Source: a virus. Taken from it: a DNA stretch of 29,387 nucleotides. Below, in pieces: positions 3,361 through 27,750 of the stretch (positions are counted from its first letter, which is position 1; each line of letters begins with the position of its first letter). The notes below the pieces were generated by a model, which saw nothing but the letters and a program-made list of their open reading frames with translations, was not told where the DNA came from and did not search any database. Where the stretch lies: positions 1-29,387 of the IMG/VR virus record IMGVR_UViG_3300010354_000416; one strand, written 5' to 3'. Both the position numbers and the translations under genes were made by a program.

Positions 3361-3374
3361 TCAGTTTAGGTTGG

Positions 3375-4169: not shown

Positions 4170-4197
4170 CTTCAGGTAACGAAGCCATCTATTTGTG

Positions 4198-4434
4198 ATG
4201 GCTGGAACACCTCTATATTCATACTACGGCGAGTCCGCAATGCGGAATGCTCGTAGCAGCATGTCCCCCAACGCTGGTGCACCCCAGGCTGGGGGCATGC
4301 CTTTTCTAGGTCATACACGCTGTATGGCTAACGAAGAAACATGTCAGGGAGCACGTGCCAAGGGCACGGATTACTGCATCGGTCATCTGCGTCAGATGAC
4401 TAAGGAGAAGTCCAATGAACAAACTGGAGATTAG
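4198..4434 (+). CDS. small putative zinc-knuckle protein
   Basis: 78-residue protein read from ATG 4198; the GTG three bases earlier is an alternative. The N-terminal 35 residues are Ser/Ala/Pro-rich. The C-terminal half carries Cys42, Cys49, Cys60 and His63 (C-x6-C-x10-C-x2-H, ending YCIGH), a spacing able to bind one zinc ion. Such short knuckles are frequent in phage proteins of unknown role. The end overlaps the adaptor gene by 20 bases, and the adaptor's ribosome site AAGGAG (4402-4407) lies inside this gene, suggesting coupled translation. A virion or assembly role is possible from its place between coat and adaptor genes, but nothing proves it. Confidence 0.68.
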   Translation: MAGTPLYSYYGESAMRNARSSMSPNAGAPQAGGMPFLGHTRCMANEETCQGARAKGTDYCIGHLRQMTKEKSNEQTGD

Positions 4435-7952: not shown

Positions 7953-9958
7953 TGGAGAAGTGGACTGCGCCAGCGATTGCATCACTTCGTGGTGACAATA
8001 CGATTCCTCTTCAGCGAACATTTGCGTCGCTGACGGAGTATCTGTCAACGCTATCTGATAGTTATCTTCCTACTGGTGGCACAGCAGGTCAGATTCTCGC
8101 TAAGATTGATGCCACCGACTACAACACACAATGGATTGATAACTTCGTAGAGAAGACCAAGTGTCTTGTTAAGAGTGATAACGCCGCAACCCTTCCGAAG
8201 GGTGCGGTCGTTTATACGTCTGGTGCTAATGGTACGAATATTCTGGTGAAGGGTGCTATCGCTACGAGCGATGCGACTTCAGCCACGGTTCTCGGTTTAC
8301 TTGAGACATCTCTTGCATATAATGCTCAAGGGTATGTGATTACCGAAGGTCTTATTTCTGGCATTGACACGAGTGCGGCTAACGCTGGTGATCCCGTCTG
8401 GTTGTCGCCAACGGTTGTCGGTGGTCTTCTATTCGGTTTGGCAAACAAGCCGCACGCCCCATACCATCTTGTGTATTTGGGTGTTGTCACTCGTGCACAT
8501 GCAATCAATGGAGAGATTGCCGTACATATTCTTAACGGCTGGGAATTGGACGAACTCCATAATGTCGCCGCTCTATCGCCGTCTAATGGCGACACGATCG
8601 TCTACAACTCTACGACATCGTTGTGGGAGAAGGGCAAGTATCCTGCTGCTCAGTTGTCTGGTACAGCGTTGCCTGCAACGATCGTGACATCAAGCCTGAC
8701 TTCGGTGGGTACTCTTTCTGCTGGCAGTATTCCCTCATCGTTGATTACTGGTTTGGCGGCGTCCGCTACGACGGACACGACAAACGCAAGTAACATTACT
8801 TCTGGTACGTTGCCTTCGGCACGTTTGTCGGGTTCGTATCCGAGCGTTACTGGTGTTGGCACTTTATCGTCTGGTTCTATCCCGTCTTCATTGATTACGG
8901 GTCTTGCTGCTTCGGCAACGACAAATACGACGGACGCAAGCAACATCACTTCTGGCACTCTTCCTTCGGCGCGTTTATCTGGCTCCTATACTGGCATTAC
9001 TGGCGTAGGGACGATTACAACTGGAACATGGTCGGGTTCGTTTGGTTCGGTATCTGGAGCAAACTTAACTTCGTTGAATGCTTCCAACCTATCAAGTGGA
9101 ACGGTTGCATCCGCTCGAATTTCTGGTTCGTACACAGGCATTACTGGTGTCGGAACGCTGACAAGCAATCTTGTTGTTGACGCTTTCAATAGTCCTGCCG
9201 TCAATGTTGGTGATTGGAGCGTCAATGGTATTTATGGATCAATTTTTACTTCGTATGGTGCTCTACTTTTAGGAACATCTACAGACCAGAATCTTAGTCT
9301 TCGTTCTTATGGATCATCTAGCGTAGTTGCGATTGGTAATGGTACGGATGTAAACGCCGTGCAAATTGGGACAAACATCAATATGAAATATGGAATCATC
9401 GGCACTAACTCTGGAAATCAAAATAACTATATAAAGTTGGGTACTGGTGCCACCGACTCAAACGCAACGCTGTTCGGCTATACGGCATACGGAAACTTGC
9501 GAACCACTTGTGGTTACAACGTCGGCATTTCGTGGATCAGTACGGGTGGTGCATCACCTAACGGTTTTGTGCCAAATGCACACGCCGTTTTTTTGGCTGG
9601 AACAACGGTTTCGGGAGACATCCGTTCTAATGCCAATAACTCCACTTCATACAACACAACATCAGATTACCGATTGAAGAAAGATGTTGTTGATATTAAC
9701 GATGGAATGTCGTTGATTAGAAAACTAAAGCCAAAGCGTTTCAAATTTATCAACGATCCGTCGGAGAAGGTATTTGATGGATTTTTGGCGCACGAAGTAC
9801 AGGATATAGTTCCAGTTGCCGTATCTGGCGTAAAAGACGCTGTTGGCGAAAATGGTCATCCGATTTATCAGCAGATTGATACTTCTTGGATGGTGGCATT
9901 GCTGGCGGCTGGCATAAAGGAATTGGATCAGCGTTTGACTGAATTGGAGAAAGTATGA
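7952..9958 (+). CDS. tail fibre with C-terminal S74 self-cleaving chaperone
   Basis: 668-residue receptor-binding fibre. Residues 1-65 (ending with DYNTQWIDN) are an attachment/fibre linker. Residues ~65-230 are a beta-rich region. Residues ~250-405 are Ser/Gly/Thr-rich repeats (GSIPSSLITGLAASATT; NITSGTLPSARLSGSY). A variable AT-richer region then holds the probable receptor-binding part. Residues ~565-668 are an intramolecular chaperone (peptidase S74, PF13884): SDYRLKKDV at 571, then FLAHEVQDIVP and SWMVALLAAGIKELDQRL. In that family the chaperone drives trimer folding and then cuts itself off. The start overlaps the previous stop (TGATG) with no good ribosome site, implying coupled translation. 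Confidence 0.86.
   Translation: MEKWTAPAIASLRGDNTIPLQRTFASLTEYLSTLSDSYLPTGGTAGQILAKIDATDYNTQWIDNFVEKTKCLVKSDNAATLPKGAVVYTSGANGTNILVKGAIATSDATSATVLGLLETSLAYNAQGYVITEGLISGIDTSAANAGDPVWLSPTVVGGLLFGLANKPHAPYHLVYLGVVTRAHAINGEIAVHILNGWELDELHNVAALSPSNGDTIVYNSTTSLWEKGKYPAAQLSGTALPATIVTSSLTSVGTLSAGSIPSSLITGLAASATTDTTNASNITSGTLPSARLSGSYPSVTGVGTLSSGSIPSSLITGLAASATTNTTDASNITSGTLPSARLSGSYTGITGVGTITTGTWSGSFGSVSGANLTSLNASNLSSGTVASARISGSYTGITGVGTLTSNLVVDAFNSPAVNVGDWSVNGIYGSIFTSYGALLLGTSTDQNLSLRSYGSSSVVAIGNGTDVNAVQIGTNINMKYGIIGTNSGNQNNYIKLGTGATDSNATLFGYTAYGNLRTTCGYNVGISWISTGGASPNGFVPNAHAVFLAGTTVSGDIRSNANNSTSYNTTSDYRLKKDVVDINDGMSLIRKLKPKRFKFINDPSEKVFDGFLAHEVQDIVPVAVSGVKDAVGENGHPIYQQIDTSWMVALLAAGIKELDQRLTELEKV
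8700..9165 (+). repeat. protein-level repeats in fibre shaft
   Basis: Two near-identical blocks and a third, shorter, diverged one encode G-S-I-P-S-S-L-I-T-G-L-A-A-S-A-T-T, S-G-T-L-P-S-A-R-L-S-G-S-Y and G-V-G-T modules. The amino acids are kept but most codons differ, so DNA identity is much lower than protein identity. Confidence 0.8.
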
Positions 9959-10092
9959 GCGAGCCGCAGATTGATGCACAAAAGGTGATTGATTCGCTTA
10001 TTAGGCAGATCGCAGATATGGCTGGCAAAGTTGCCATGCTGGAGGCTTTATTGGCCCAAGAACGTGAACAAAGTAACGAAAAGGCTGATTAG
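9955..10092 (+). CDS. 45-residue helical protein
   Basis: Short gene between the S74 fibre and the internal-virion genes, found by reading the gap. ATG 9955 overlaps the fibre stop (ATGA), and the frame runs to TAG at 10090. The protein starts MSEPQIDAQKVIDSLIRQIA and continues with D-M-A-G-K-V-A-M-L-E-A-L-L-A-Q-E-R-E. The heptad-like pattern of I/L/V/A fits a coiled coil, and the tail is Glu/Lys-rich. Small coiled-coil genes at this position occur in many tailed phages and may be fibre chaperones or assembly helpers. No function can be assigned. Perfect packing between neighbours supports it as a real gene. Confidence 0.72.
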   Translation: MSEPQIDAQKVIDSLIRQIADMAGKVAMLEALLAQEREQSNEKAD

Positions 10093-10094
10093 TG

Positions 10095-10526
10095 ATGGCT
10101 TACACCGATATAGGACTAGCGTATGAACCCAAGAGACGTGCCGCTGCCCAGCAGCGGGATGCGATCATGTCCCAAAACGCCTTCAGCCGTTTCCTGTCCC
10201 AGCAACGTGGCTCACGCCAGTTGCAGGATTTGGATCGGTCGTCTTCTCGCGGCCTTGAGGGGTTTGGTGCTGGATACGGTAAGCGTGGTTTGCGGAATAG
10301 CGGTATTTACCGTCAGGCAACTTCGGACTATGCGCAGAACTGGATGACTCAGCGCAACGACATGTTGGATGCTTTGCGTCAGCAGGAGGCTCAGTACGGT
10401 TTGGCTGATGCTCAGGCTCGTGCTGGTTATGAGGATACTTTGGCTGAGATTGAGTTGGCGAAGCAACGTGACATTCTTGCCACGGCTGCTTCTTTGTCGG
10501 GCTTACGCCCATTTTTGGGGAGTTGA
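10095..10526 (+). CDS. small Gln/Arg-rich putative internal virion protein
   Basis: 143-residue protein read from ATG 10095, two bases after the previous stop; the GTG at 10092 is less likely. It is rich in Gln, Arg, Ala, Ser and Gly and largely helical (RRAAAQQRDAIMSQNAFSRF; NDMLDALRQQEAQYGLADAQ), with a glycine-rich centre GFGAGYGKRGLRNSG. It has no recognised domain. It opens a run of four genes (10,095-21,270) with similar helical composition and a giant last member, the usual place of podoviral internal core or ejection proteins, so a virion role is likely. The next gene's ribosome site (GGGGAG at 10517-10522) lies inside its end. Confidence 0.62.
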   Translation: MAYTDIGLAYEPKRRAAAQQRDAIMSQNAFSRFLSQQRGSRQLQDLDRSSSRGLEGFGAGYGKRGLRNSGIYRQATSDYAQNWMTQRNDMLDALRQQEAQYGLADAQARAGYEDTLAEIELAKQRDILATAASLSGLRPFLGS

Positions 10527-10528
10527 TT

Positions 10529-11713
10529 ATGCCTCGTTACGGTTCTGCTGATTCTGAAGAGCGTCGGATCCAGGCTGGTAAGAAGCCGTCTGGCACGACG
10601 ACGACGGTTAATCCTCGTGACAAGTTTACGAAGGTGATGGATGAGTATGGTCAGCCTACTCCTATTTGGAAGTGGAATGATCCTGCGACCCAGGCTGCTA
10701 TTGGTGCGTTTGATGCTGGTGAAGTTACTGCTAGTGGTTTGGGGAAATGGTCGGATATTGCTGATGTTCAGCGTGCCATCTTTGGTAGTAATGCCGCTTA
10801 CAATCGTGCCAGCAATCCTCCTCCTCCCGCATCTGGTAGTGGGGGCTACGGCAACTTGATGTCGGCGCTACAACAGTATGCTTCCAGTATCCCCGATAAT
10901 ACTGGGATGATTCAATCTGGTTATGCGGATCTAATTAAGTCTATTACTGATCGTTCAACGCAACAGGATGATTTGATTAAGTCTTTGTTTGGTGAGCAGA
11001 CCAGCCAGTTGGAGCGTAGTAATGCTGACATGTTGTCGCAGTTGGCGAACATGTATACGCAGGCTACTGGTGAGGTGGATCGTCAGACGGCTGAAGGTCT
11101 TCAGACGATTGATGATACGACTCAGCGTGCTTTGGAGGCTTTGCAAGCACAGCAGAATCCGTATGCTGGTTTGCAGATGCTTGCGGCTCCTTCGGTGACT
11201 GATCCGATGGCCGCTTATTCGCAGGCTGTTGGTGCGCCTGCGGAGGGTGTGAATGCTTTGCAGAATATGTTGCAGTCGCAGAATGCGGCGACAGGTAATG
11301 CGTTTAATAATTTGGCGCAGTTGTTGGGTGCTTCGCAGTCGGCTGCTCAGCAGTCTCGTATTGGTGATGTGAATGTTGCTCGTGCTGGTGCACAGCAGGA
11401 TTTGGGTGCTAATCAGCGTGCTGTTGCTTTGCAGTTGTTGAATCAACGTAATCAGCAGGAGATGGCTCAGCGTGCTCGTTTTGATGAGCAAAGGTTGGGT
11501 TTGGGTCAGAATATGTTGCAGGCTCGTTTGGGTACGTCTGGTCAGTTGAGCGATATTTTGAATAGTTTGGGTTCTCAGCAGTTGCAGACTTTGTTGCAGG
11601 AGCGTCAGGGTCAGCAGGCTACTCGTGCTGGTTTGCAGGAGAAGTTGTTGGAGTTGGCTGCTAAGGGTGTTGATGTTTCCAAGTTGATGGCGTCTCTTGG
11701 AGGTGTGCGATGA
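10529..11713 (+). CDS. Gln/Ala-rich coiled-coil putative internal virion protein
   Basis: 394-residue protein. ATG 10529 is six bases after GGGGAG and is preferred to the TTG at 10523. Residues 1-110 are basic then Ser/Gly-rich with several Pro. Residues ~110-394 are a long helical region very rich in Gln, Ala, Leu and Asn (LQALLGASQ-like and QQLQTLLQERQGQQATRAGL-like stretches), consistent with extended coiled coil. Such proteins line the inner core or are ejected with DNA in podoviruses. Codon use is strongly biased to CAG, TTG, GCT and CGT, which leaves few stops on the other strand and creates long mirror frames. It overlaps the next gene by ATGA. No enzyme motif was seen. Confidence 0.65.
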   Translation: MPRYGSADSEERRIQAGKKPSGTTTTVNPRDKFTKVMDEYGQPTPIWKWNDPATQAAIGAFDAGEVTASGLGKWSDIADVQRAIFGSNAAYNRASNPPPPASGSGGYGNLMSALQQYASSIPDNTGMIQSGYADLIKSITDRSTQQDDLIKSLFGEQTSQLERSNADMLSQLANMYTQATGEVDRQTAEGLQTIDDTTQRALEALQAQQNPYAGLQMLAAPSVTDPMAAYSQAVGAPAEGVNALQNMLQSQNAATGNAFNNLAQLLGASQSAAQQSRIGDVNVARAGAQQDLGANQRAVALQLLNQRNQQEMAQRARFDEQRLGLGQNMLQARLGTSGQLSDILNSLGSQQLQTLLQERQGQQATRAGLQEKLLELAAKGVDVSKLMASLGGVR

Positions 11714-12861: not shown

Positions 12862-12879
12862 CAGCCACCCCTATTATTG

Positions 12880-15800
12880 ATGGCTGTTTACGACTCCAAT
12901 AAAGGTTTTATCAACCCCCGTCTGGCTGGACGTTCTGCCGTACAGTCCCTTCAGGACGTACTCAAACAACAGAACCTCAATACTTCCACCCAGTTGGAGA
13001 ATCCGCTCCGCAAGGACTATTGGGCTGGCGATGTCGCCAAGGCCACACAACCCGAACTTGGTGGTTGGAAGGGTTTCCTCACCGACGTCATTGAATCGCC
13101 TCTTGGTAAGGCTGTCGTCAAGGCTGGCGAAGTTATTTCCATGCCTGGTCGTGCTGTCGTCGCCTCGTTTGAGGAGTTGCGTGACGCTCTAGACGGCGAT
13201 CCAAATACTGCCGCTTCTTGGAATGACTTCACAAGAAACGTAGCCAACCCGATGTACGGGTTCGGCTCGTTGACGGGTGATGTGTTTGAGGGCGACTCTG
13301 GATGGGCCAAGTGGGGTAACCGTCTTATCGGTTTGGCTGGCGACATTGTTACGGATCCCCTCACATATGTTTCGCTTGGTGCAAACAAAGCCTTGGGTGC
13401 GGTGGGCAAGGTTGATGATGTTGTTGAAGCAGGCACTAAGGGTATGCGAATTACTGGACGTGCGGGTCGTGAAGCATTGGCTGTGCGTGTCTTGGACAAG
13501 ACTGGCAACGCCGAACTAGCCAAGCAGGTTTCACGCTATGGACGTCGTGCTATGTCGACGCTTTCGGATGACGTGTTCAAGCAGATTGGCTTGGAGCGTG
13601 CTGGACTCTACTTTATGGGTCGTCGCATCAAGGGGACCACACGTATCGGTCAGGCCACGGAGCGTGGCTTGACCTCAATGCGTGTTTGGAGCGGAGACCA
13701 TCTATTTAAGCGTGCTAACGAATTCTTTACTCTGGATGACGTGAAAGAGGCTCGCCGAGCGTTGGCTCGGGGTGTTGCGCCGACAGAACGGGCTGAAGCG
13801 TATTTGCGGATGATTGCTTCGGAGAACACGAAGCGTGCCGCTAAGGCGGCTCAAGGGCGTTATGCGCAGGCTTCGTTGCGACAGTTGGTTACTGAGGTTG
13901 GCGAGCAGAACTATCGTGCTGCTTCGCCGAATCTGTATAAGGCTCTTGAGGGTTCTGTCGCTGTTGATGCGTTGACGCAAGGTGAACGTACGGTCTATGA
14001 CCGTGTTGTTTCGTGGTTTGATGATCTGTGGGGTCGTGTTGATGCTGGGGCTAAGGCTGTTGATCCCGCTCAGACAACCAGAAAGGTCAACCAGTATTTT
14101 CCTCACGTGTTGACTGATGATGCTATTCGGTTTGTGACTACGAACCAGAGCGACTTTGCTCGCGGTTTGCGTGAAATCATTTACAACCCTCTTGATCCTG
14201 CTGGGTCGTTTAAACCTCGTATGACGATTGACGACGATTTCTTCGGCATTAAGTTGAAGGCCGACGATTTGAAGGTGGAGCGTCTCAATGAGATTGCTCG
14301 TAACGCTGGCTATAAGGGCGACTTCTTTGAAACCAACCTTGCTGCCGTTATGGACAAGTACATCGGCAGTTATGCCGAGCAGATGGGTTTGATTGCACGC
14401 AAGAAGTATCTGGTTGATAGCGGCATCTTCTCCAAACTTGAACGTGTGGATAAGGTTGACAAGGAAGCAGTTAAGGCTTTGCGTAAGTCTATGACGGATA
14501 CTGCGGCTAGCCGTTCCAACGCCGCCAAGGTTGTTCAGAAGTCTGTTGATGACATTCGTAAGATCATCAATGAGGTGACCAACAACAGGTTGGATGACGC
14601 TCAGGGTCGTTTGGGTGCTTGGGCTAAGGGTGTCGCTAGTGCAGACGAGGCTGTTGAACTTGCAGGCCGTGCGGTGGTTATGACACGACAGCATCTTGAT
14701 GAGATGTCTCGTGTCATGAACGAAACCAGTTTGGCTATCTCTAACATGTTTGAGGGTGAAGCCCCCGACATTGTACGCTATCTTGAGGATGGGCATCAGA
14801 AACTTTTGCGCGATATTGAGGACATGCGCACCAACTTGTCTGATGTTATTGCTAGCGGCGAGCAGACTGCCGCACGCTTGAAGCAGATTGAGGATCAGGT
14901 TACTTCGCTTCGTGAAACCGAAGAGATTCTGTTCCAGTTCGGCAACTCGCTTCAGATGCATATTGATGATGTGATTGACGGCAAGAACATTGCCGACTCT
15001 ATTGTCGGCGCTGATGTGTTGCGTGGCGTTAAGTCTGCTGCTAGGGGCGACATTAAGATTGCTGGTGGTAGGGACAAGATTCTTGCCGACTATGTTGCTT
15101 CACCTACATTCAAGATGCTGAATGGTGAGGCGGAGATTTCTTTTAAGAAATTGCGTGAGTTTACGCCAGAGAGTGTTTTGGACATTGTTCAATCTGCCGC
15201 CCGTGGAGAGGCGGAGATTGAAGATATTCGTGCCGCCATCATTTGGATGGACGCTGTTAGCGAAGGGGCATTGTCACGTGGCTCCCGCACCGAGCCTTCG
15301 TTGCGTCGCCTGTTTGAATTGGATGGCGAAACCAAACCTGGTTCGTTGCGTCGTATGGCCGAACTTCAGCAATGGAAGAAGGTTCTTGCTGAGGCACGTC
15401 AGAACAAAGAGTTTGTTCGTGTTGAGAAAACTTTGAACAACTACCAGAAGGTTTACGACGACATCACCACCGCTGTCATGGTTTATTATTCATCTAACAA
15501 AATGTTGGATGAGATTACTGGCGTCAAACTGTACAAATATGGTGGGTCCAAGGAGGCCCCTCTTGCCGAACAGTTGGCACGTATAACGTACGATCAAGAT
15601 CCTCGGGCTTTTGTAAAGTCTTTTCTGGCTAAGCCCGAGTATGATTCGCTGCAAACTTTTTTTGCCGACTATCTTGACGATGCCTTTGAGGGCCAGTTGG
15701 AGTCGTATGATGATTTCATCAAGAGTTTAACTCGGCTTGCTGATAGTTACGATGGCTTTGCTCAGGAAGTTGTTTTTACGTCGCAGCGTTTTGGTCAAGA

Positions 15801-18800
15801 GGCTGTTAAGACTGGATCAGTACGGTTTGATGCGATGGAATTTCTTGTTGACATTAACGATATTATTCGTTATGGCGATGCTGAGGACATTTCTGATTTT
15901 ATTGAGTTGATGTTGAGCGGTAGGGTTAAGGAAAGCCCTCGCGTCGATCCTAATGCTGGCGCAAAGTTAATTGATAACGAAGAAATTGCTGATGCCGCAA
16001 AACAGCGGAATCGTATTCCCCAAGGTGGCCCCAAGGCGAAGGGCCGTACTGGTAGAGCAACTACTGGCGGAAAATCTGTTGATGAGATTGAACGCATTCG
16101 TTCTAGTATCGGGAACCTTGAGCGACGCATCGGGCAAGAAGAAACAAGAATTTTTGTTAAGAAGAAACTTGGTGAGTCTCCAGCAGATGCCGTCCTACGC
16201 AAAACCATCATCAAGTTTTACTTGAAGGAACTCAAAGAGCAGAATGTTGCTAAGTCTTCTCTGCGTAGCATGATTGATGCAAAGTCTTCTGAGTTGCGCA
16301 AACTAAACCCCAAGGTCCGTATCGGCAATGTCAATGCGGTGTGGTCTTCGGAGATTGGCGTCAAGGCGAAGAGCGACATCATTGACGCTTGGTTTGCTTT
16401 TGAAACAGAACGACGCATGAAGGCTGTCACCGATACTCTTATTCCGATCGGCTTGATGCCCGACGAGGTTATTGCCCAGAGGATCTATCAGAAGGTTGCT
16501 AGGGAGTTTATCGGCGAAACGCAACGTGAGATTTCTAGTTTGCGTGAAGTGTCCGATGGTCTTGGCAAGATCTATCGTGCGGCCCTAGAGGGCCAGCACG
16601 CAGATGCCGCCTCTCTGCATGATGAGATCAGCAAGTTCCTTGCACAGAATAACGGCAACGTCCATCTGGCGAAGCATGCTGGTGCGGCTGGCGGATATGA
16701 GATTCGTCGTAGTTTTGAGTTGTATGGTGGACGTACGGGTGCTCGTGGCGAACTGGAGCGTCTGCGTAAACTTGAGATTGATTTGCGTAAGGCGACGACA
16801 ACTGCGGAGAAGCAGGCTATTCGTTCTCAGATGGGTGGACAAACCTATAAGGGTTTGTCTGTTGAGCGTAGAAGGTTGATGAACGAAGTTTGGATTCCTT
16901 GGTATCGTAGTGTTACTGGTCGCACCAAGGGTCGTCCTACTCTTCGTGAGATTCAGGATGCTCTTGATGCTTATGCCCCCAAGGCTTCCGCTAAGGCTGA
17001 GAAGCGTGCGGTGTTGAAGGCTGTCAAGTCTGGACAGTCTGAGATTCAGGCTAAGGCTATTGAGCGTGGTCGTCCTTATGGTTCTATCGCCGAGGATGCG
17101 ACTCGTGAAGACATGATTTCTTGGCTTGCTTCTGTCGCCGCAATTATGCGCCAACAGGCGTTTGATACGAGGAAGCAGTTTAGAGGAATCTTGAATATGG
17201 CTGATCCGTTCTCGGTTCCAACGATGGCAGATCTGGGTGTTCGTGCTGTGCGTGGTGACGCAATGCCTACTTTTATCGCAGATGTGGCACGCCGTACCTA
17301 TGACAGTTTGTTGCGTGAACGTGATGAGATTGCTCGTATTGGTATTGAACGACGACAGATTGTTGGTCAGGTTGCGCAGGCCGAAAAGAAGGTTGGTCGT
17401 GCTACCGCCGCTCGTCGTGTCATTGAGGATGAGTCTGCGGTTGCTCGCCCCTATAAGGGGCAGAGCGAACCTTACCGTGAGTTTTCTAGCGATGATCTGA
17501 AGGCGGCTCGTGAGGCTTACAAGCAGATTTCCGAGTTGAGTAATGATCCGAATTATTTGTCTGGCGTTGAGCGTCAGCAATTGAATGAGATCATCAAGGT
17601 GTTGGCGCAACTTGATCCCATTGACCAGATTTCTTTGAGCCATAGATTGAACGATGTGGCTAGAACCAAGAAGTTGTTTGAAGATGGCGCAGATATTTAC
17701 ATGCGCAACGAAAAGGGCGAGTACGTTAAGGTGACTCGTTTGAAGCAAATAGAATCTCTTGCTAGCGATCCGAATAGGGTCAAGGACGAAACTTTCTTTA
17801 TTCGTCGTGCGATTGGTGCGCCTACTGCGCAAAAAGAAGTTATGGTTGGCGGCAAGATGCAGCGAAGTGTCGCCTACAAAAATGCCATTGCCAAGTACGA
17901 AAGAGAAGTTCTTCGTGCTGACAGCATTGAAAATAAGTTTGCGGCGACCGAGGCTACTCGCAAATCAAATGCTGTTAAGGCTCAGCAAATTCGTGACAAT
18001 GCCGAAAAGGAATTGGCGCAATTTGGTGCGGCTACGGAATCTTCTATTGATGATTTTATCCCGATTCAAACTGTGTCCAATCAATCTAGGCAAGAGATCA
18101 TCCAAATTGATAGGGATATTTCTAAACTTGAAATTGAGTTGGCTCGTGCTATTAACCCTGCAGATAAGGGAAGAATGGTTTCTTCCGATTTATTTGATCA
18201 GCAATTAGCCAATGTTTCTTCTGACGCTGATCTTATTAGAAATCAAATTAAGGATCTGAGGGCCAAGAAAGAAAGTTTGCTTTCTAGGGGCGGGTCTATT
18301 GGCATTGCAAATTTGGATGCCAAGGAAATTGAAGCATTGTTTATGCCGATTGTCCAAGGTCAAGTCGTACCAGATATTGCTGCTTTGTCTAAGCCTGGTC
18401 GTTTGACTGCCGAGATGCGTCCGCTGTGGGAGGCGCAACAGGAAGTTCAGCAAAGTCTTTCTCGTGTGGGCAAAGAGATCAGATCTCTTGAACAGAAGGG
18501 TATTCGTCTTGACGACGCTTATCGGCGTCGCAAGATTTCGCGTGCCGAATACGATGTTCAGCGCAATCTGAACGAAAGCATGATTGAAGAAGCACGTCGT
18601 GACATGGTTAGTTTGCGTCGTGAATATAACAAGGCACAAATGAGGATTGAGGCTGCAGATCCCGATATTAGAAACGCCATTCTTTACAAGATCCAAGATA
18701 TCTCTGATTTGATTAACGATGGTGTGTTGACGTTGGACGATATTGTTGAGTCAGTTGCAGAGGCTGGTTCTAGAGCGAGCGAAGCAACAATCAAAGCACG

Positions 18801-21270
18801 TCTCAAATTGTTGGATGATTTGTGGAAGGGTTCCGACGAACAGTTGGCTGTTGCCCGTATGGAGAAGTTGAACGCCTCTGTCGGTGCGCGTGTTTATCGT
18901 GCCGTGGTTGCTGACCAAACCAGGTTGAACAGGGTTTTGGATCAGACCAATCAGAAGTTGGTTGAGCGTGGTGGTGCGATTGAACGTCGTCTTGGTGAGT
19001 TGCCGTCTGGTGCTGCCGACGATTTTGTCGGCCCCACCGCCCCATTCGACTTGGCTATTGACGTACGTCGTGGACGTGCGGCGGCGACAAAGAAGAACTT
19101 TGATTCCTTGCTGGAGACGATTACTAGGCAGACCAATGGTCAGTACGATGCCAAGGTTCGTTTCCGTGAGTTGATTGCTCAGAAGAGGAATGCCAATAAG
19201 AGTCCTGTTGAGATTGTGGAGATGATGCGTGTTGAGATTGAGAAGTTGAAGCCTCGTCTACCGAAGAAGAATCTGCTTAAAGGCGAGTTTAGTGGTGTTG
19301 TTAGGATTACGGATTACGATTCGCTTACTACGAAGATAAATGATCTTCTTGACGAAGCAGACTTCATCGCTCGCAACTATATGATGCCTAGCGGCAAGTC
19401 TATTTTCTCCGATCAGCAAGATTATTTGATGGCACGTATTGGAAGCATGGAAACGGAAGCGGTTGCTTACGAGAAGGCTTTGGCTGGCCAGAAGCGTCTA
19501 ATGGCTCAAGACGACAGGAAGGCTGCTGCCGCCTTGTCCAAGCAAGCGGATCAGGCTGAGAAGGCTGTGGCTAAAGCGCAGAAGGCTTACGATGATGCTG
19601 TGGATCGTTTTGAGACGGCGACGATTGCTTACGGTGATGCACAGTATTCCGAGAATGCTCAGCGTCTTGAGAAGTATGCCGCCGAATTGAGTGACTTTGC
19701 AAAGCGCATTGAGGATCAGATGCCTGCTGGCAAGGTGAAGGATCCCAAGGATCTTCCTTTCGTGTTGGCGTTGCTTGACGAGTTTGAGCAGGTGATTGGT
19801 CGCAACGGGCCCGAATTGGCTAAGACTAACCCAGAGATTATCCCTACGTTGGAAAGGTTGCGCAACGACTATCTGGTTGCTCAAGTTAACTTCTTTATGG
19901 CTGACAAAAACGATCAGTTGTATCGTTCGTTCCAGAAGTTCATTGATGATGGCTCGTTTGGACGTACTGTTGAAGAACAGGTTTCTAAGGGATTCAAGAG
20001 TCTTGCTAGCATCGGTTTGCCGTCGTATCAGGCGCAGGAATGGTTGTCGGAATTGTCGGTGAACTTGAATCGTTTGAGCAAGCCAGAGTTCGTTCGTGGT
20101 TTGACACCATTCTTAACTAAGTACACAAGTTTCTTTAAAGCGTATGCCGTGTCGTCGCCTGGGTTCGTTGTGCGCAATACAATGAGCAACACGTTTATGT
20201 TATTTGCTGCTGGTGCAGATTTGAAGAGTATGAGTCAGGGCTTGGAGTTGTACGGCGCTTGGCGTCGTGCCGTGTCTGCTGGCGAGGAAGCCAAGTGGTT
20301 GGCTTCTCTGCCAGCGTCTCGCCGCAACCTTGTTGAGACTGCGGTCGCCGCGATGGACGCTTCAGGTTATGGTCGTGGTATGGAGGCCGTGCAAGCATTT
20401 AATCCGAAGCGCAAGTGGCTGGTTGATAACCGTTGGGTGAATACGTTCCGTAAGGCGAACGAAGTGTCGGAGGGTTCGGCACGTTTCATTCTTGCTTGGG
20501 ATTCGGTACGTAAGGGCGCGGACTTTGATGCGGCGACAGCAAGGGTGAAACGGTACTTGTTTGATTACGAGGCTACGAGTGCTGGCGATGAGGTGATGCG
20601 TTCTATTGTGCCGTTCTGGTTCTGGATGTCACGCAACTTGCCGATGCAGATTGTGAATCAGTATGAGAATCCTCGTGCCTATTTGATTTATCAGAAGGCG
20701 ATGAAGAATGTTGCTCAGGACGAGGATGAAGACGAGATGGTTCCGTCTTGGTTGAAGGAGCAGGGCGGCGTCAAGATTGGTACGAATACATACTTTGCTC
20801 CTGATCTTGGTTTCAATAGGATCAGCCAGCAGTTCAACGAGTTGAAAGACCCGAAGCGTCTGTTGTCGTATGTGAACCCTGCTTTGCGTGTGCCTGTTGA
20901 GTTGTTGGGTGAGCGTAGATTCTACAACGACGTTCCATTCAGCACTAAGGGCGAGCAACCTATGGGTGGCCCTGCGTCCTCCGCTGTGTCGGCGTTGGCT
21001 TCAATCTTAGGTCAAGAGAAGCGCACTCGTGAAGGTGATATGGGTGTTGATCCGAAGTTGAATTATGCGTTGATGAACTTGTTGCCGCCGCTGGCACAAA
21101 CTGAGCGTTTGTTGCCTGCGACGGATCTGTACAAGGGCAAGCAGGGTGGTTCTATTCTGTCGTACTTTGGTGTGCCGTTGAAGACTGTCACTCCGCAGAT
21201 GCGTGAGGCAGAGCAGAGGCGACGACAGATTGAGCAGGATGCGTTGAGGAAGAAGGCGTCTGGAGGCTGA
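12880..21270 (+). CDS. giant (2,796 aa) putative internal virion / ejection protein
   Basis: About 310 kDa, uninterrupted, read from ATG 12880 (a TTG at 12877 is possible; the ribosome site is weak). Residues ~20-200 hold Gly/Ala-rich semi-hydrophobic helices (LGKAVVKAGEVISMPGRAVV; WGNRLIGLAGDIVTDPLTYV) that could interact with membranes. QYFPHVLTDDA at ~405 resembles a motif seen in large phage polyvalent/inner proteins. Residues ~480-2,300 are mostly charged coiled coil with many Glu/Lys/Arg heptads. Near the end come SPGFVVRNTMSNTFMLFAAG (~2426) and VPFWFWMSRNLPMQ (2577-2590), the pattern of the C-terminus of very large phage virion proteins. I see no clear transglycosylase or protease catalytic motif. 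Size and position match the T7 gp16-like role of an ejected core protein, but at twice that size. Stop TGA 21268-21270 is one base before the lysin start. Confidence 0.72.
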   Translation: MAVYDSNKGFINPRLAGRSAVQSLQDVLKQQNLNTSTQLENPLRKDYWAGDVAKATQPELGGWKGFLTDVIESPLGKAVVKAGEVISMPGRAVVASFEELRDALDGDPNTAASWNDFTRNVANPMYGFGSLTGDVFEGDSGWAKWGNRLIGLAGDIVTDPLTYVSLGANKALGAVGKVDDVVEAGTKGMRITGRAGREALAVRVLDKTGNAELAKQVSRYGRRAMSTLSDDVFKQIGLERAGLYFMGRRIKGTTRIGQATERGLTSMRVWSGDHLFKRANEFFTLDDVKEARRALARGVAPTERAEAYLRMIASENTKRAAKAAQGRYAQASLRQLVTEVGEQNYRAASPNLYKALEGSVAVDALTQGERTVYDRVVSWFDDLWGRVDAGAKAVDPAQTTRKVNQYFPHVLTDDAIRFVTTNQSDFARGLREIIYNPLDPAGSFKPRMTIDDDFFGIKLKADDLKVERLNEIARNAGYKGDFFETNLAAVMDKYIGSYAEQMGLIARKKYLVDSGIFSKLERVDKVDKEAVKALRKSMTDTAASRSNAAKVVQKSVDDIRKIINEVTNNRLDDAQGRLGAWAKGVASADEAVELAGRAVVMTRQHLDEMSRVMNETSLAISNMFEGEAPDIVRYLEDGHQKLLRDIEDMRTNLSDVIASGEQTAARLKQIEDQVTSLRETEEILFQFGNSLQMHIDDVIDGKNIADSIVGADVLRGVKSAARGDIKIAGGRDKILADYVASPTFKMLNGEAEISFKKLREFTPESVLDIVQSAARGEAEIEDIRAAIIWMDAVSEGALSRGSRTEPSLRRLFELDGETKPGSLRRMAELQQWKKVLAEARQNKEFVRVEKTLNNYQKVYDDITTAVMVYYSSNKMLDEITGVKLYKYGGSKEAPLAEQLARITYDQDPRAFVKSFLAKPEYDSLQTFFADYLDDAFEGQLESYDDFIKSLTRLADSYDGFAQEVVFTSQRFGQEAVKTGSVRFDAMEFLVDINDIIRYGDAEDISDFIELMLSGRVKESPRVDPNAGAKLIDNEEIADAAKQRNRIPQGGPKAKGRTGRATTGGKSVDEIERIRSSIGNLERRIGQEETRIFVKKKLGESPADAVLRKTIIKFYLKELKEQNVAKSSLRSMIDAKSSELRKLNPKVRIGNVNAVWSSEIGVKAKSDIIDAWFAFETERRMKAVTDTLIPIGLMPDEVIAQRIYQKVAREFIGETQREISSLREVSDGLGKIYRAALEGQHADAASLHDEISKFLAQNNGNVHLAKHAGAAGGYEIRRSFELYGGRTGARGELERLRKLEIDLRKATTTAEKQAIRSQMGGQTYKGLSVERRRLMNEVWIPWYRSVTGRTKGRPTLREIQDALDAYAPKASAKAEKRAVLKAVKSGQSEIQAKAIERGRPYGSIAEDATREDMISWLASVAAIMRQQAFDTRKQFRGILNMADPFSVPTMADLGVRAVRGDAMPTFIADVARRTYDSLLRERDEIARIGIERRQIVGQVAQAEKKVGRATAARRVIEDESAVARPYKGQSEPYREFSSDDLKAAREAYKQISELSNDPNYLSGVERQQLNEIIKVLAQLDPIDQISLSHRLNDVARTKKLFEDGADIYMRNEKGEYVKVTRLKQIESLASDPNRVKDETFFIRRAIGAPTAQKEVMVGGKMQRSVAYKNAIAKYEREVLRADSIENKFAATEATRKSNAVKAQQIRDNAEKELAQFGAATESSIDDFIPIQTVSNQSRQEIIQIDRDISKLEIELARAINPADKGRMVSSDLFDQQLANVSSDADLIRNQIKDLRAKKESLLSRGGSIGIANLDAKEIEALFMPIVQGQVVPDIAALSKPGRLTAEMRPLWEAQQEVQQSLSRVGKEIRSLEQKGIRLDDAYRRRKISRAEYDVQRNLNESMIEEARRDMVSLRREYNKAQMRIEAADPDIRNAILYKIQDISDLINDGVLTLDDIVESVAEAGSRASEATIKARLKLLDDLWKGSDEQLAVARMEKLNASVGARVYRAVVADQTRLNRVLDQTNQKLVERGGAIERRLGELPSGAADDFVGPTAPFDLAIDVRRGRAAATKKNFDSLLETITRQTNGQYDAKVRFRELIAQKRNANKSPVEIVEMMRVEIEKLKPRLPKKNLLKGEFSGVVRITDYDSLTTKINDLLDEADFIARNYMMPSGKSIFSDQQDYLMARIGSMETEAVAYEKALAGQKRLMAQDDRKAAAALSKQADQAEKAVAKAQKAYDDAVDRFETATIAYGDAQYSENAQRLEKYAAELSDFAKRIEDQMPAGKVKDPKDLPFVLALLDEFEQVIGRNGPELAKTNPEIIPTLERLRNDYLVAQVNFFMADKNDQLYRSFQKFIDDGSFGRTVEEQVSKGFKSLASIGLPSYQAQEWLSELSVNLNRLSKPEFVRGLTPFLTKYTSFFKAYAVSSPGFVVRNTMSNTFMLFAAGADLKSMSQGLELYGAWRRAVSAGEEAKWLASLPASRRNLVETAVAAMDASGYGRGMEAVQAFNPKRKWLVDNRWVNTFRKANEVSEGSARFILAWDSVRKGADFDAATARVKRYLFDYEATSAGDEVMRSIVPFWFWMSRNLPMQIVNQYENPRAYLIYQKAMKNVAQDEDEDEMVPSWLKEQGGVKIGTNTYFAPDLGFNRISQQFNELKDPKRLLSYVNPALRVPVELLGERRFYNDVPFSTKGEQPMGGPASSAVSALASILGQEKRTREGDMGVDPKLNYALMNLLPPLAQTERLLPATDLYKGKQGGSILSYFGVPLKTVTPQMREAEQRRRQIEQDALRKKASGG

Positions 21271-22129: not shown

Positions 22130-22292
22130 TCCCCTGAAACCTTTCCTTGATCTGGTCTGCGATGTTTCCGATCTCGTTCAACGCTTTTTCGTTGCCCGAG
22201 GTGATCCACAGCACGACCGCCAAGGTGAGTGCCGCAATGTCGGGGAATGCGATGTCCCCACCTTCGTTGATCATGTCTTTGGTGGTGCTCAT
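22107..22292 (-). CDS. 61-residue protein with one membrane helix
   Basis: Read from ATG 22292, which overlaps the previous stop as TAATG. A longer frame to 22373 would overlap the upstream gene by 82 bases and is not needed. Residues ~17-34 (PDIAALTLAVVLWITSG) form one predicted membrane-spanning helix, flanked by an acidic, Gly-containing N-terminus and a charged C-terminal helix ending in a Ser/Asp/Glu tail. It could be an inner-membrane modulator or a second lysis protein; nothing in the sequence decides. It is in the early operon rather than beside the lysin, which favours a membrane role early in infection. Confidence 0.65.
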   Translation of the reverse strand: MSTTKDMINEGGDIAFPDIAALTLAVVLWITSGNEKALNEIGNIADQIKERFQGNDSSGDE

Positions 22293-23059
22293 TATTGAAT
22301 CTCCAGTTCTAGGGTGAAAGTGTTGGCCAGCAACATCAGGCCGATAACAGCATAGCCCAGTAAGTCCATCCAAGAGTCTAAAAGGGACTCGTTCATCGCA
22401 TTTTTATTTCGCAGGTTTTTGATGCGAGCAATCTTGTCGGACATTCGGACACAGATGCCGATGTCACCGAATGCGAGGATGTTGTCGTGACCGTAGTCAG
22501 CCTGCTTTGAGCAGAGCAGTTCGTGGATTGAGTCCAACGTCACGTCGTAGCCACGCAGATGGCTGATGGCGTACAGGGCGACGGACGAGAACAGTTCGTG
22601 AATGTCGGGTGCGAACATGTCACCCTTTTCGTCTACGTACACGATCAGTTGCGATTGAAGGGCATCCAGCCCGTTGTCACTCGTGATGATGCAGATTCCG
22701 CTGTTCACTTCTTCTAGTTGTGACCAGCATGCTTCGTTCCAATTGTTGAACATTTTGTACCTCCTGTTGATTGATGGTTTGTTGATGAGTTGTTTGCGTA
22801 GTTCTTCCATTGCTTTCTGTGCAAGCCTCCATGCGTGAGGCTTGCTACATCCGAGTCTGTCTCCCAGTTTGCTGTATGGGATTCGCTCGTAGAAGATTGC
22901 CTCTATACATAGTTTGGATTGCGGCGACAGGGACTCTACGGCTTTGATCACCGTACTGATGTGTTCGGTGTTGGTGTCGTAGGGGATGTCGCCTAGTTGC
23001 AGAAGCCATTCGGCTTCGTTCTTCGGTTCTGCCGCATAGATGTCAGGGTTGAAGATCAT
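22292..23059 (-). CDS. sigma-region-4-like HTH fused to Nmad1 (DUF1599) domain
   Basis: 255-residue protein from ATG 23059, overlapping the previous gene by 17 bases. Residues ~40-92 (LSPQSKLCIEAIFYERIPYS, then KLGDRLGCSKPHAWRLAQKA) look like sigma-70 region 4: a helix-turn-helix that reads the -35 element. Residues ~170-245 match DUF1599/nucleotide-modification-associated domain 1 (PF07659): ADYGHDNILAFGDIGICVR, then MSDKIARIKNL, NESLLDSW and DLLGYAVIGLMLL. The join (SINRRYKMFNNWNEA) contains AGGAGG followed six bases later by ATG 22753, giving a second complete start for a 153-residue Nmad1-only product. So one gene may give two proteins: a long DNA-binding form and a short form. The role in transcription switching or nucleotide metabolism is inferred. 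Confidence 0.7.
   Translation of the reverse strand: MIFNPDIYAAEPKNEAEWLLQLGDIPYDTNTEHISTVIKAVESLSPQSKLCIEAIFYERIPYSKLGDRLGCSKPHAWRLAQKAMEELRKQLINKPSINRRYKMFNNWNEACWSQLEEVNSGICIITSDNGLDALQSQLIVYVDEKGDMFAPDIHELFSSVALYAISHLRGYDVTLDSIHELLCSKQADYGHDNILAFGDIGICVRMSDKIARIKNLRNKNAMNESLLDSWMDLLGYAVIGLMLLANTFTLELEIQ
22760..22765 (-). promoter_or_regulatory. strong internal ribosome binding site
   Basis: AGGAGG on the minus strand, six bases before an in-frame ATG (22753) within the sigma4/Nmad1 gene. It encodes Arg-Arg in the long product and is one of the best ribosome sites in the whole early module, better than that of the gene's own start. Confidence 0.7.
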
Positions 23060-23507
23060 GTTTGATCGGCTCCGCTGGGAAGTTTGCTATGGGCAGGGCG
23101 AAGTATGGTTTGTTGTTGTCGGGGAATCTTGCGACTTCGCCGTGTGTGTGGCAGGCTCTTGTCCAGTCTTCTAGGGTGGCATCCCAGTAGCGTTTGCGTC
23201 CTGAGTCCCACACCCAGATGCGGACTGGTCCGATGCATGACCATGTTGCGAGTGCTGACAGTTTCTCAAACTTGACTTTGAGTTTGCCGTCGCCACGTGA
23301 TGTGCATCCCATGACCTCATACATGAATGTTGAGGTCATGAAGTCGGGTGCGTATCGCATAGGGTCTAGCATTCCTCGTACGTCAAAGTCTGGGCGGTTG
23401 AGTCCGACACGGTGGGCGTAGGGGTGCACCGACAAAAAGGCGTTCTCTGCGGTGTCTCCCATTGTGCCGAGACGGTTAGCCCATGTTTGGTCTTTGAAGT
23501 TGCTCAT
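23043..23507 (-). CDS. conserved-type phage protein, possible PD-(D/E)XK-like fold
   Basis: 154 residues from ATG 23507, which overlaps the RusA stop as ATGA. The longer frame to 23552 is not favoured. Visible elements are an acidic N-terminal helix (GDTAENAF), then RYAPDFM, MYEVMGC and KVKFEKLSALATW, followed by the strand VRIWVWDSGRKRYW. The order helix-Glu, Pro-Asp-Phe, Glu-x-Met, Lys-x-x-Lys echoes nuclease cores of the PD-(D/E)XK type, but the usual Lys of E-x-K is Met, so activity is doubtful. It follows a resolvase gene, so a role in DNA processing is possible. No firm name can be given. Confidence 0.6.
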   Translation of the reverse strand: MSNFKDQTWANRLGTMGDTAENAFLSVHPYAHRVGLNRPDFDVRGMLDPMRYAPDFMTSTFMYEVMGCTSRGDGKLKVKFEKLSALATWSCIGPVRIWVWDSGRKRYWDATLEDWTRACHTHGEVARFPDNNKPYFALPIANFPAEPIKHDLQP

Positions 23508-23920
23508 GCTTTTATCGCCACGATCTTGACGACTTGTGAGTCGTCTGCCCATGCTACACCGTTCAACCCGTCAAGGACGGTTTTCACGTAGTTGTCAAGG
23601 TCGCCTCGTAGGGATGCCTTGCCTTCTATGTCGATTCGTTCAACAATGACTGCTGTGCCTTCTTTGTCTACGACGATGTGTACGGCAACTTCTCCGTGGA
23701 ACACAGGACCATCCCATGCGGCGGCTACAGCCTTCTCTGCTTCCACCGTTTTGGACGGTGTGTACATGAAGGGTTTGCCTGCTTTGGATGTGGTCGCTCG
23801 TGGACGTTCCTTCGGGTGCGGTTTGCCTTCTATGTAGATGGAGTGTGACCGTACGCTCGTACCAGCAACTTCTCCAGTTCCAGTCGGCCTGCTTCGCCCC
23901 TGATCATGTACTTTCCCCAT
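23504..23920 (-). CDS. rusA: RusA-family Holliday junction resolvase
   Basis: 138-residue endonuclease that cuts four-way DNA junctions as a dimer, resolving recombination and replication intermediates before packaging. The RusA (PF05866) signature is clear: PHPKERPRA at 35-42 (N-terminal strand and basic loop), FMYTP at ~51-55, and RGDLDNYVKTVLDGLNG from 105 with Asp107, Asp109 and Lys113, then WADDSQV with Asp126/127. These Asp and Lys residues correspond to the catalytic set in E. coli RusA. The only start codon available in frame is ATG 23920, so the gene overlaps the primase gene by 91 bases, with a GGAGG 13 bases before the start. It is ATGA-linked to the next gene. Confidence 0.88.
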   Translation of the reverse strand: MGKVHDQGRSRPTGTGEVAGTSVRSHSIYIEGKPHPKERPRATTSKAGKPFMYTPSKTVEAEKAVAAAWDGPVFHGEVAVHIVVDKEGTAVIVERIDIEGKASLRGDLDNYVKTVLDGLNGVAWADDSQVVKIVAIKA

Positions 23921-24723
23921 CTTGTATCAGCGTCCTCCAAAATAGACATGGCATCCTCGGGATTGAGGTTTGCCTTACGGCATTCGTGTGCGAGGTGTGT
24001 CAGGGTTGTTGACCTGTCACGCCCCTCTAACGGGCCATCACGGAAGATGGTTCGTCCTAAGGGCGTGAGTCGCCTCGCGGATTCTGTCATGTCATGTGTT
24101 GGTGGTGTCGCCGTGTATGAGATCACGGGCGGACGATAGTAGGCGGCGAGTCGGATGATGGTGTCAGCCGAAGTGTAGCGGTTGAACGCTTCACGTACGA
24201 ACTCGTCTACTGGTATGGCCTGTAGGTCTCGTGTGACCATGACACGTCGCCCTGTCCCGTCGTTGGGGTAGGGGAGACGCACATAGTTGCCAACTTGACC
24301 TTTCATGAGCGTCTCTTGTTTCGGGTTCACTTCCTTGGCAGGAAGTTCTGCGACTTGATGTGCCGCTAGAAACATTCGTCTCATGTGTTTGGCTTGGATG
24401 AGTTCGGGTGTGAACACCCAGATGTGGTAGCCACGGCGTGTGCGTTCAACCCACGAGTGAACCCCTGCCGCTTCAAAGGCGTCGTGTAGAAGCCATGCGT
24501 GGTCAGGGTTGTCGTAGTCAATGTCGGAGCATCCCCACACACACATCGTCTCGCCGTTGAACGGGACGCATGGGTATACGCCGATGAACGCTTCACCGAA
24601 TAGGTGTTCTTTGAACGTGGCTTCACGCAACGGTTCCCGAACGCATCCACCTTCCCACGCCCCGTAGCAGTCTCCACGTCCACGGAACAGGGTGATGAAG
24701 TCGTTGAGGATGTCGTCACTCAC
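23830..24723 (-). CDS. archaeo-eukaryotic-type (AEP) primase
   Basis: 297 residues from GTG 24723, which overlaps the helicase stop by eight bases. An upstream frame to 24810 would overlap far more and looks non-coding. Motifs of AEP primases are in order: CSDIDYD with Asp67 and Asp69 (metal-binding D-h-D), SWVERTRRGYHIWVF with His100 (the s-x-H motif), and GNYVRLPYP around 145-152. This resembles the TOTE/bifunctional primase branch. The C-terminal ~100 residues are helical (LTHLAHECRKANLNPEDAM), as in primase C-terminal domains that partner a helicase. Directly next to a DnaB-like helicase, it probably makes primers at the fork in place of DnaG. Fork-partner pairing is inferred from gene order. 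Confidence 0.82.
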   Translation of the reverse strand: MSDDILNDFITLFRGRGDCYGAWEGGCVREPLREATFKEHLFGEAFIGVYPCVPFNGETMCVWGCSDIDYDNPDHAWLLHDAFEAAGVHSWVERTRRGYHIWVFTPELIQAKHMRRMFLAAHQVAELPAKEVNPKQETLMKGQVGNYVRLPYPNDGTGRRVMVTRDLQAIPVDEFVREAFNRYTSADTIIRLAAYYRPPVISYTATPPTHDMTESARRLTPLGRTIFRDGPLEGRDRSTTLTHLAHECRKANLNPEDAMSILEDADTRWGKYMIRGEAGRLELEKLLVRAYGHTPST

Positions 24724-25762
24724 CACGCACCGCCTCATAGAACTGCGACGGCAGTTCACCGTCACGCAGACGTGTGAGACGACCCGTGCCCTGCTCAATC
24801 TCAAAGTCAATGTCGTCCAGCAGGTTGCCAGCAGGACGCTTGTTCTTCACCAGATTGAGGGTCAGGGTGTGAGCGTGGATACGTGCCTCGTATCGCAGAC
24901 TGTCCAACTGTTCCATCGTGCGTTCCGATGCGGTGGACTTGTCCAACTTGGCTTCAAGTTCACGAATCTGCGATTCAATCTCAAACCGCTTACGACGCAC
25001 ACCGACGATGTGGGTTGCCTGCTGTTCACCGCCGAACGATCCCGAAGAGATCGTGAGACGCTTGCCGTCAGCACCCGATGAACGTGATGTCTGATGGAGT
25101 ACGAGCAACGGCACATCGTGTCGTCGCCCCCACGCCTTGAGAGTGTTCGCCTTTGACGGCACATCCTCTCCACCACCCTGAAGCAACTCAAGATAGTCAA
25201 ACACCACGAGGTCGGGCTTCTGACCCCACAGGTCAGTCACCTCGCCCATCGCACGTTCCATGTCGGACAACGACAGAGGTTGGTCAAATACTGCGAGCGT
25301 CGGGAAGAACTCGTTCGCTGTCTGCTTCAGCAGATCAATCGCTTCGGGTTCATCGGCGGCAACCATACGCTCCAAGTCTATCGCATTCACGCCGTGCGTG
25401 ACGCAAGCCAACTTGATGAGCACAAGTGTGCGTGGTTCGTCAGGGACGAAGTACACGACGTTCTTGTTATGGTTCGCTTTCAGCATCTCCAACAGGGTGA
25501 GGGTCTTACCGCTGTGGCTGTAGCCGATGACGAGACACATCTCGCCAGAGGCGATGCCACGCATCTCGTTGTCCAGATCGGTGAAACCCGTGTAGATGCG
25601 TTCGTGTGGGGACTGTGCCCAACGTACGAACTCGTGTGCCGCTTCTTCAAGCGGACGGTAGTAGGAATGCGTTTTCGTTTCTGTTGTAGACGAAGACGGG
25701 GGGCTTTCGCCCCCCGCCATCAACGCTTCCCACTTGAGGGCAAGTGCTGATTTGTCCGTCAC
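24716..25762 (-). CDS. DnaB-like replicative helicase (RecA-fold ATPase)
   Basis: 348 residues from GTG 25762 (GTGA overlap with the previous stop). The hexameric helicase ATPase core is visible: Walker A GYSHSGKT at 80-87, motif YFVPDEP at ~104-110, Walker B LVVFDYLELL at 185-194, then VLHQTSR at 221-227 with a following SGSFGGEQQATHIVGVRR segment and the C-terminal strand DIDFEIEQGTGRL. The N-terminal primase-binding domain of full DnaB is missing. Only ~50 linker residues precede the core, similar to short phage helicases and RepA/KaiC-like relatives. A strong hairpin with a GAAA loop lies in codons for residues ~16-22. It likely unwinds DNA at the fork beside the AEP primase. Confidence 0.87.
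   Translation of the reverse strand: MTDKSALALKWEALMAGGESPPSSSTTETKTHSYYRPLEEAAHEFVRWAQSPHERIYTGFTDLDNEMRGIASGEMCLVIGYSHSGKTLTLLEMLKANHNKNVVYFVPDEPRTLVLIKLACVTHGVNAIDLERMVAADEPEAIDLLKQTANEFFPTLAVFDQPLSLSDMERAMGEVTDLWGQKPDLVVFDYLELLQGGGEDVPSKANTLKAWGRRHDVPLLVLHQTSRSSGADGKRLTISSGSFGGEQQATHIVGVRRKRFEIESQIRELEAKLDKSTASERTMEQLDSLRYEARIHAHTLTLNLVKNKRPAGNLLDDIDFEIEQGTGRLTRLRDGELPSQFYEAVRGE
25697..25716 (-). promoter_or_regulatory. GAAA-loop hairpin inside the helicase 5' coding region
   Basis: Perfect 8-bp stem, CGGGGGGC-GAAA-GCCCCCCG on the minus strand, beginning 46 bases into the helicase message. It would be very stable in RNA and could attenuate transcription or slow translation. It uses the otherwise scarce codons GGG, CCC and CCG. 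Confidence 0.55.
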
Positions 25763-27517: not shown

Positions 27518-27542
27518 GATCTTCCTTTCTTGTCGTTGCTAG

Positions 27543-27578
27543 AACCACAAGTGACACCCTGTGGTGTCACTTGTGGTT
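27543..27578. repeat. perfect 16-bp inverted repeat (hairpin or operator)
   Basis: AACCACAAGTGACACC and its exact complement flank a CTGT loop. It lies 26 bases before the start of the operon's first gene. It could be an operator for a dimeric repressor, or a leader hairpin. No T-run follows on the minus strand, while the + side is followed by TTATCTGTTTCC. Confidence 0.7.
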
Positions 27579-27647
27579 ATCTGTTTCCTCCCCTGTCGGA
27601 AAGTCTATTGCTGGCTTTGTCAACGGTTGTTCACGAGACACCGTGTG

Positions 27648-27666
27648 TTTGTCAACAATTGACAAA
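27648..27666. repeat. 19-base palindrome, operator candidate
   Basis: TTTGTCAA-CAA-TTGACAAA, a perfect dyad with 8-base arms and a 3-base centre. An exact copy of TTTGTCAAC occurs at 27616-27624, 32 bases away (about three helical turns), suggesting cooperative binding of a regulator. Confidence 0.55.
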
Positions 27667-27699
27667 GTATACGTGGACAGGCACGTAGAAACAGGAATA

Positions 27700-27723
27700 G
27701 CCCACCACGTTTCCGTGGTGGGC
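27700..27723 (-). terminator. GAAA-loop intrinsic terminator
   Basis: Perfect 10-bp stem, GCCCACCACG-GAAA-CGTGGTGGGC on the minus strand, followed by TATTCCTGTTTC, 28 bases after the stop of the preceding minus-strand gene. It separates the right-edge gene group from the replication operon. Confidence 0.75.
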
Positions 27724-27750
27724 GACTCCTAGATGATACGACCGTATCAA

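Follow-up and report, generated by a model that had tools for sequence, protein, structure and literature searches.

The 29,387-nucleotide stretch of viral DNA analysed here, referred to as the window, carries on its minus strand a gene in which a sigma-70 region 4-like helix-turn-helix (HTH) is joined in frame to a DUF1599/Nmad1 domain (Table 1). This single frame had been proposed in an earlier reading of the sequence alone, and both of its halves are matched by Pfam profiles. The minus-strand sequence around the join is ATCAAC-AGGAGG-TACAAA-ATG-TTC, so that the AGGAGG which the sequence-only reading had placed six bases before an in-frame ATG (22753) is found at 22765–22760 with a spacer of 6. 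The border between the two domains coincides exactly with this AGGAGG-TACAAA-ATG, a candidate Shine–Dalgarno (SD) sequence and start codon.

Table 1. Coordinates of the HTH–DUF1599 locus and of further features observed in the window.
Feature	Position	Strand	Basis or remark
Full-length gene, sigma-70 region 4-like HTH + DUF1599/Nmad1, in frame	22292..23059	minus	255 aa, one open frame
Sigma-70 region 4 domain, aa 41-89 of long form	22793..22939	minus	Pfam PF04545
Internal SD AGGAGG, codons R99-R100 (AGG AGG)	22760..22765	minus	duplex energy
Spacer TACAAA between AGGAGG and internal ATG	22759-22754	minus	
Internal in-frame start codon ATG, M103	22751..22753	minus	
Nested putative short gene, DUF1599/Nmad1 alone, 153 aa, ~17 kDa	22292..22753	minus	Pfam PF07659
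Long-form start codon	23057..23059	minus	SD -5.8; overlaps 3' end of upstream gene by 17 nt
Upstream overlapping gene, conserved neighbour in many relatives	23043..23507	minus	PD-(D/E)XK-like by eye only
Primase	23830-24810		PF22548 match, 60.6 bits (AEP domain of TOTE conflict systems)
Open frame of 2797 aa, probably virion protein	12877-21270		more than a quarter of the window
Strong hairpin	27543-27578		16-nt arms, 100% complementary; 4-nt loop
Strong hairpin	27693-27730		17-nt arms, 88% complementary; 4-nt loop

The gene lies at the end of a replication operon, in which a Cas4-like exonuclease, a 182-aa protein, a DnaB-like helicase, an AEP-type primase and RusA are followed by HTH and DUF1599. 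The PD-(D/E)XK-like protein stands between RusA and the HTH in many relatives; in the window, the upstream gene (23043..23507) had no match in Pfam or PHROG. Genes for a lysin and a giant virion protein are convergent with the operon, and the surrounding operon is kept in phages with fused and with split forms of the gene alike. PADLOC returned no match. Both hairpins listed in Table 1 fall within the apparently non-coding interval 27518-27750 on the early strand, which may represent a terminator or a regulatory region.

Residues 41-89 of the long form belong to Sigma70_r4 (PF04545; 27.6 bits, cut-off 24.1), and the sigma-region-4 match of the gene in the genomic scan scored 7.6e-9. A profile search of the N-terminal half against PDB retrieved FliA (1.7e-10). 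Structure prediction of both halves, a check suggested by the sequence-only reading, yielded two domains for the full-length protein (AlphaFold2, mean pLDDT 86.8), and the structural matches of the N-terminal half were to sigma region 4 of SigL/SigH/FliA with Z scores of 9-10 (SigL region 4, Z 10.3; FliA, 1rp3, Z 9.0 with 32% identity). On the basis of the model we assign this half to sigma region 4 with confidence. The protein is not a complete sigma factor: region 2, which provides -10 recognition and core binding, is absent, and the part N-terminal to the region 4 match measures only ~40 aa. Consistently, the NCBIfam sigma models match the gene with only their last ~60 positions, and none of them reaches its cut-off. 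Compared with sigma-70 region 4 proteins of the FliA/sigma-28 type, the phage gene has neither region 2 nor region 3, and its putative recognition helix (SKPHAWRL) is, by eye, unlike that of host sigma factors. Among the NCBIfam results at E≤1 there was no ArpU match; ArpU/RinA-type late regulators form divergent families.

The C-terminal half, scanned as the short form, belongs to DUF1599/Nmad1 (PF07659; 26.0 bits, cut-off 25.0) and matches phrog_1485 at 2e-15, and all 29 C-terminal halves in alignment A5 match DUF1599 at E≤0.1 (best 7e-9). Modelled alone, it folds into six helices (pLDDT 91.5), the first of which begins just after the internal Met. Its invariant residues include K185, D188, H191, D208 and D232 (long-form numbering). 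A PDB sequence search with this half gave nothing at E≤5, and Foldseek gave no match at E≤0.001. Its top structural matches include dimeric dUTPases, with Z scores of 5.2-5.8 that are within the noise for helical bundles. The all-alpha dimeric dUTPase/MazG-like NTP pyrophosphatases share an all-alpha fold with catalytic ExxE...ExxD motifs; as evidence for a dUTPase relative, Z scores of 5-6 were too weak to trust. DUF1599/Nmad1 received passing mentions only in the literature searched.

The internal start signal is stronger than that of the full-length gene, as had been supposed from the letters alone: the predicted anti-SD duplex energy is -11.6 kcal/mol at the internal site versus -5.8 kcal/mol at the full-length start. 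With its spacing of 6, the internal SD surpasses that of every other start checked in the window, including the capsid gene (-10.8). The mRNA structure is unusual at neither of the two starts (z 0.34 and -0.42), so that accessibility should neither help nor hurt. The signal is also widespread among fused relatives. A start codon (ATG, GTG or TTG) is present at the join in 64 of 78 distinct fused members; in 34 of these 64, the join SD is the best of ~18 in-frame starts, and it beats the SD of the first upstream ATG, as chosen automatically, in 57 of 62 fused members. A second SD and start codon, in frame and at the domain border, are hence a conserved property of the family.

These relatives belong to a large, little-studied group of podovirus-like phages that is represented mostly by uncultivated metagenome contigs. 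Scans of viral contigs recovered hundreds of relatives, which reduced after removal of duplicates to 94 loci with the C-terminal half (window included), 92 of them with both halves. Whether relatives carry fused or separate genes had been raised as a question by the sequence-only reading; the 92 distinct viral loci comprise 78 in which the halves are fused in one frame and 14 in which they are separate genes. In most split loci, the two genes overlap or directly adjoin each other at the join, with values of 4, 1, 0, 14, 17 or 23 nt (ATGA or GTGA, -4; TAATG, -1; in-frame TAA then ATG; -14 to -23), while one has a 19-nt gap. The split loci have a start codon at the join, usually accompanied by an SD-like sequence, and judged by its sequence this is the classical layout of coupled genes. 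In L089/L131 the two genes share one frame with a single TAA between them, and in L013/L069 they lie in different frames with a GTGA overlap. The deposited complete podovirus genome MW202803.1 likewise carries the split form, with HTH and DUF1599 as overlapping frames (L237, 11453-24232; locus at about 5841-6780) and no feature annotated over the locus. Ten related phage records each contain a single sigma-region-4 match, namely this HTH. More distant DUF1599 loci lacked such an HTH within 1.5 kb in 80 of 80 cases, indicating that DUF1599 stands alone in other phages, as far as these 80 loci tell. Genome contigs gave 27 pattern matches and no relative by tblastn, and there is consequently no host or prophage context.

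Some relatives carry a further repeated element. A near-perfect 17-bp palindrome, TTTAATTTSAAATTAAA, has at least 13 copies within 20 kb of relative G001 (L230, sites 51 to 11307), where 0.00 would be expected, and it was also found at L231:17819-18849 and in L007, L008, L010, L031, L032 and L035. It is located mostly just upstream of the ribosome-binding sites of early genes, with one copy at the end of the HTH–DUF1599 gene, and by its placement looks like an operator or 5'-UTR element; a promoter was considered as well. The window does not contain it, even with 3 mismatches allowed.

A conserved SD-like motif within a coding frame could reflect selection on the protein. If only the long fusion were made, the SD-ATG at the join would be left over from a formerly separate second gene, or would merely follow from amino-acid conservation; the fused frame is indeed kept, conservation is high in both domains, amino acids are retained at the join too (R-Y-x-M) and some fused clades do without the signal. 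We drew synonymous codons anew according to local usage while leaving every protein sequence unchanged. Under this null model, the join of the window's own gene reached p=0.007. The join SD beat the synonymous null at p≤0.1 in 15 of 36 clusters versus 8 of 418 control windows (p = 4e-7 by Fisher test and 3e-18 by Mann-Whitney test), the clusters being not fully independent; at the level of genes, the same threshold was passed by the join in 38 of 78 fused genes versus 25 of 909 other windows.

Codon usage at the join points in the same direction. R100, the core of the SD, is AGG in 11 of 11 clusters of the window's clade, AGG making up about 10% of Arg codons (about 6-23%). Degenerate columns that are equally conserved serve as control for shared ancestry: of these 83 columns, only 3 show no codon change. 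Invariance is far less probable for R100=AGG (log10P -10.9) than for the remaining two, which hold the two-fold degenerate Asn codon AAC (-2.1). A relic would decay, yet 80 of the 83 columns changed codon and AGG did not. By-products of conserved amino acids are likewise hard to reconcile with the other lineages, which keep SD and start while the join amino acids differ and build the SD from different residues (KGE in L046, LGG in L100/L101, KEG in L042, RRR in L207-L210). Where the start position encodes Val or Leu, the codon is GTG or TTG if an SD is present, whereas the clade without SD uses CTA, GTA, CTT, TTA or CTC; for these residues, start-codon triplets are thus retained only together with the SD. 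In L038, a member of the window's clade, SD (AGG to AAG) and start (ATG to ATC) were lost jointly. Conservation of the join residues without the SD-ATG spacing, which the sequence-only reading had named as the pattern that would speak against it, was not seen, as the window's clade keeps both and the synonymous position in addition. Taken together, the join starts, the randomisation, the AGG invariance, the GTG/TTG codons and the differing SD residues show, at the level of sequence, that selection acts on the initiation signal and not only on the protein, and we consider exclusive production of the long form unlikely.

Selection on nucleotides could also serve a purpose other than initiation, such as a programmed ribosome pause that could help folding, and AGG AGG does sit exactly between the two domains. 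A pause would, however, explain neither the constant distance to a start codon nor the use of GTG/TTG for Val/Leu, and the SD is present in split members too, which makes such a role very improbable.

The signal is not uniform across the family. No start codon is present at the join in 14 of the 78 fused members, and in several others (L038, L070, L085, L165/166 and L203/213) the SD is weak, so that the free DUF1599 protein does not seem to be kept universally. A sub-clade of 15 rows lacks the join signal, the only ATG at its join (L085) being without SD; the free protein may be dispensable in these phages, or its start may have moved. An ATG with an SD-like sequence is found 12 codons further upstream in this sub-clade, but the SD-like sequence is mostly within synonymous expectation, and relocation of the start is a suggestion only. 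Several clades (L042, L099, L198) show no advantage of the join over the synonymous null, which is partly due to amino acids at this place whose codons tend to be rich in purines anyway.

The unrooted maximum-likelihood tree of the C-terminal halves implies seven changes, in either direction, between the fused and split states, of which at least four are forced by well-supported branches. That split forms are laid out like coupled genes, and that DUF1599 stands alone elsewhere, favours the split state as the older one. Loss of a stop codon or of the frame is the likely way in which fusion happens, given the single TAA in L089/L131 and the GTGA overlap in L013/L069. The simple alternative that had been offered for the window, a recent fusion through stop-codon loss, does not hold for this gene, since fusions are spread over most of the family and are shared by members with only 30-50% identity to one another. 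The window-type fusion is common to at least 11 clusters under 70% identity, and the fusion of the window's clade is accordingly not recent. Even though L089/L131 is an otherwise similar pair with a single in-frame TAA in between, a functionless product of recent stop-codon loss or of an assembly error is scarcely credible, because the same fusion is present in two relatives at 82% identity and in ten clusters at about 43-49% identity, all from independent assemblies.

The reading that best accounts for these data is a nested in-frame gene pair, from which the phage would make both the joined protein and the DUF1599/Nmad1 domain alone; we give it a probability of about 0.78. The two products proposed at the outset are thus supported by nucleotide-level conservation of the start, synonymous constraint and the position at the domain border. 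In the scheme that follows, we infer that both proteins are made, in which proportion, which way fusion went and what the products do. Initiation at 23059, with the weaker SD, would yield the 255-aa (~29 kDa) sigma-region-4 + DUF1599 protein, a form that should be able to bind DNA or RNA polymerase, at low level and is probably coupled to translation of the upstream gene, with which this start overlaps. Initiation at 22753 on the same mRNA would yield the 153-aa DUF1599 protein, which is probably the more abundant of the two. Most likely, the arrangement began as a pair of neighbouring genes with coupled translation, which stop loss or a frame change would have fused in several lineages, the ribosome-binding site of the second gene being kept because the free DUF1599 protein was still needed.

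Through its sigma-4 domain, whose contribution we deduce by analogy with its family, the long form would bring the activity of DUF1599 to promoters or host polymerase. The free form would carry out the putative nucleotide or base chemistry of DUF1599 in solution or, alternatively, would tune the long form by co-assembly. The HTH being the only sigma-region-4 match and the position at the operon end are compatible with a putative regulator, and the gene position is compatible with a possible link of nucleotide status or DNA modification to the early/late switch, as the sequence-only reading had tentatively drawn it. More speculatively, the long form might use its sigma-4 domain to engage host RNA polymerase or phage promoters, its activity being set by co-assembly with the abundant free DUF1599 or by the catalytic product of the latter. 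Such a one-gene switch, which we regard as doubtful, would, if true, couple phage transcription to the state of nucleotides or of DNA modification.

Annotation pipelines would report a single product for this gene and overlook the putative short protein. The family amounts to a natural experiment within one syntenic operon, in which overlapping genes, fusion with an internal start and fusion without one can be compared, and the fusion/fission series makes it possible to study why a domain that is already fused should also be retained in free form. The tie to a sigma-like domain also offers a way to approach the DUF1599/Nmad1 family, whose function is unproven. To our knowledge, neither this domain pair nor a fusion/fission series with retained ribosome-binding site has been described before.

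The C-terminal half matches the known DUF1599/Nmad1 family (PF07659; phrog_1485), of which the other loci examined are without such an HTH. An independent neighbourhood link of DUF1599 with a transcription regulator was observed in Geobacillus phage PT9.1 (gp66-gp67, L238:1914-2659), where the DUF1599 gene overlaps a gene annotated as an ArpU-family transcription regulator by 4 nt. This arrangement differs from the present one in that the order is reversed, the genes are separate and the regulator is not recognised by Pfam.

In-frame internal starts at domain borders are already known in phages. Gene 4 of T7 encodes two collinear primase-helicase proteins (gp4A/gp4B), the shorter of which is initiated internally at a separate ribosome-binding site and lacks part of the N-terminal primase region (PMC12593628). 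The present gene is likewise one phage gene with a predicted internal in-frame start, recognised by its sequence features, but its domains are unrelated to those of T7 gene 4, whose two products have been demonstrated and co-assemble. In CTP1L-type clostridial phage endolysins, an internal SD (GGAGG/AAGGGGG) and start in the linker give rise to a product consisting of the C-terminal domain only, which is reduced when the SD is changed (PMC4777826). In contrast to these lysis enzymes, the two domains of the present gene also occur as separate overlapping genes.
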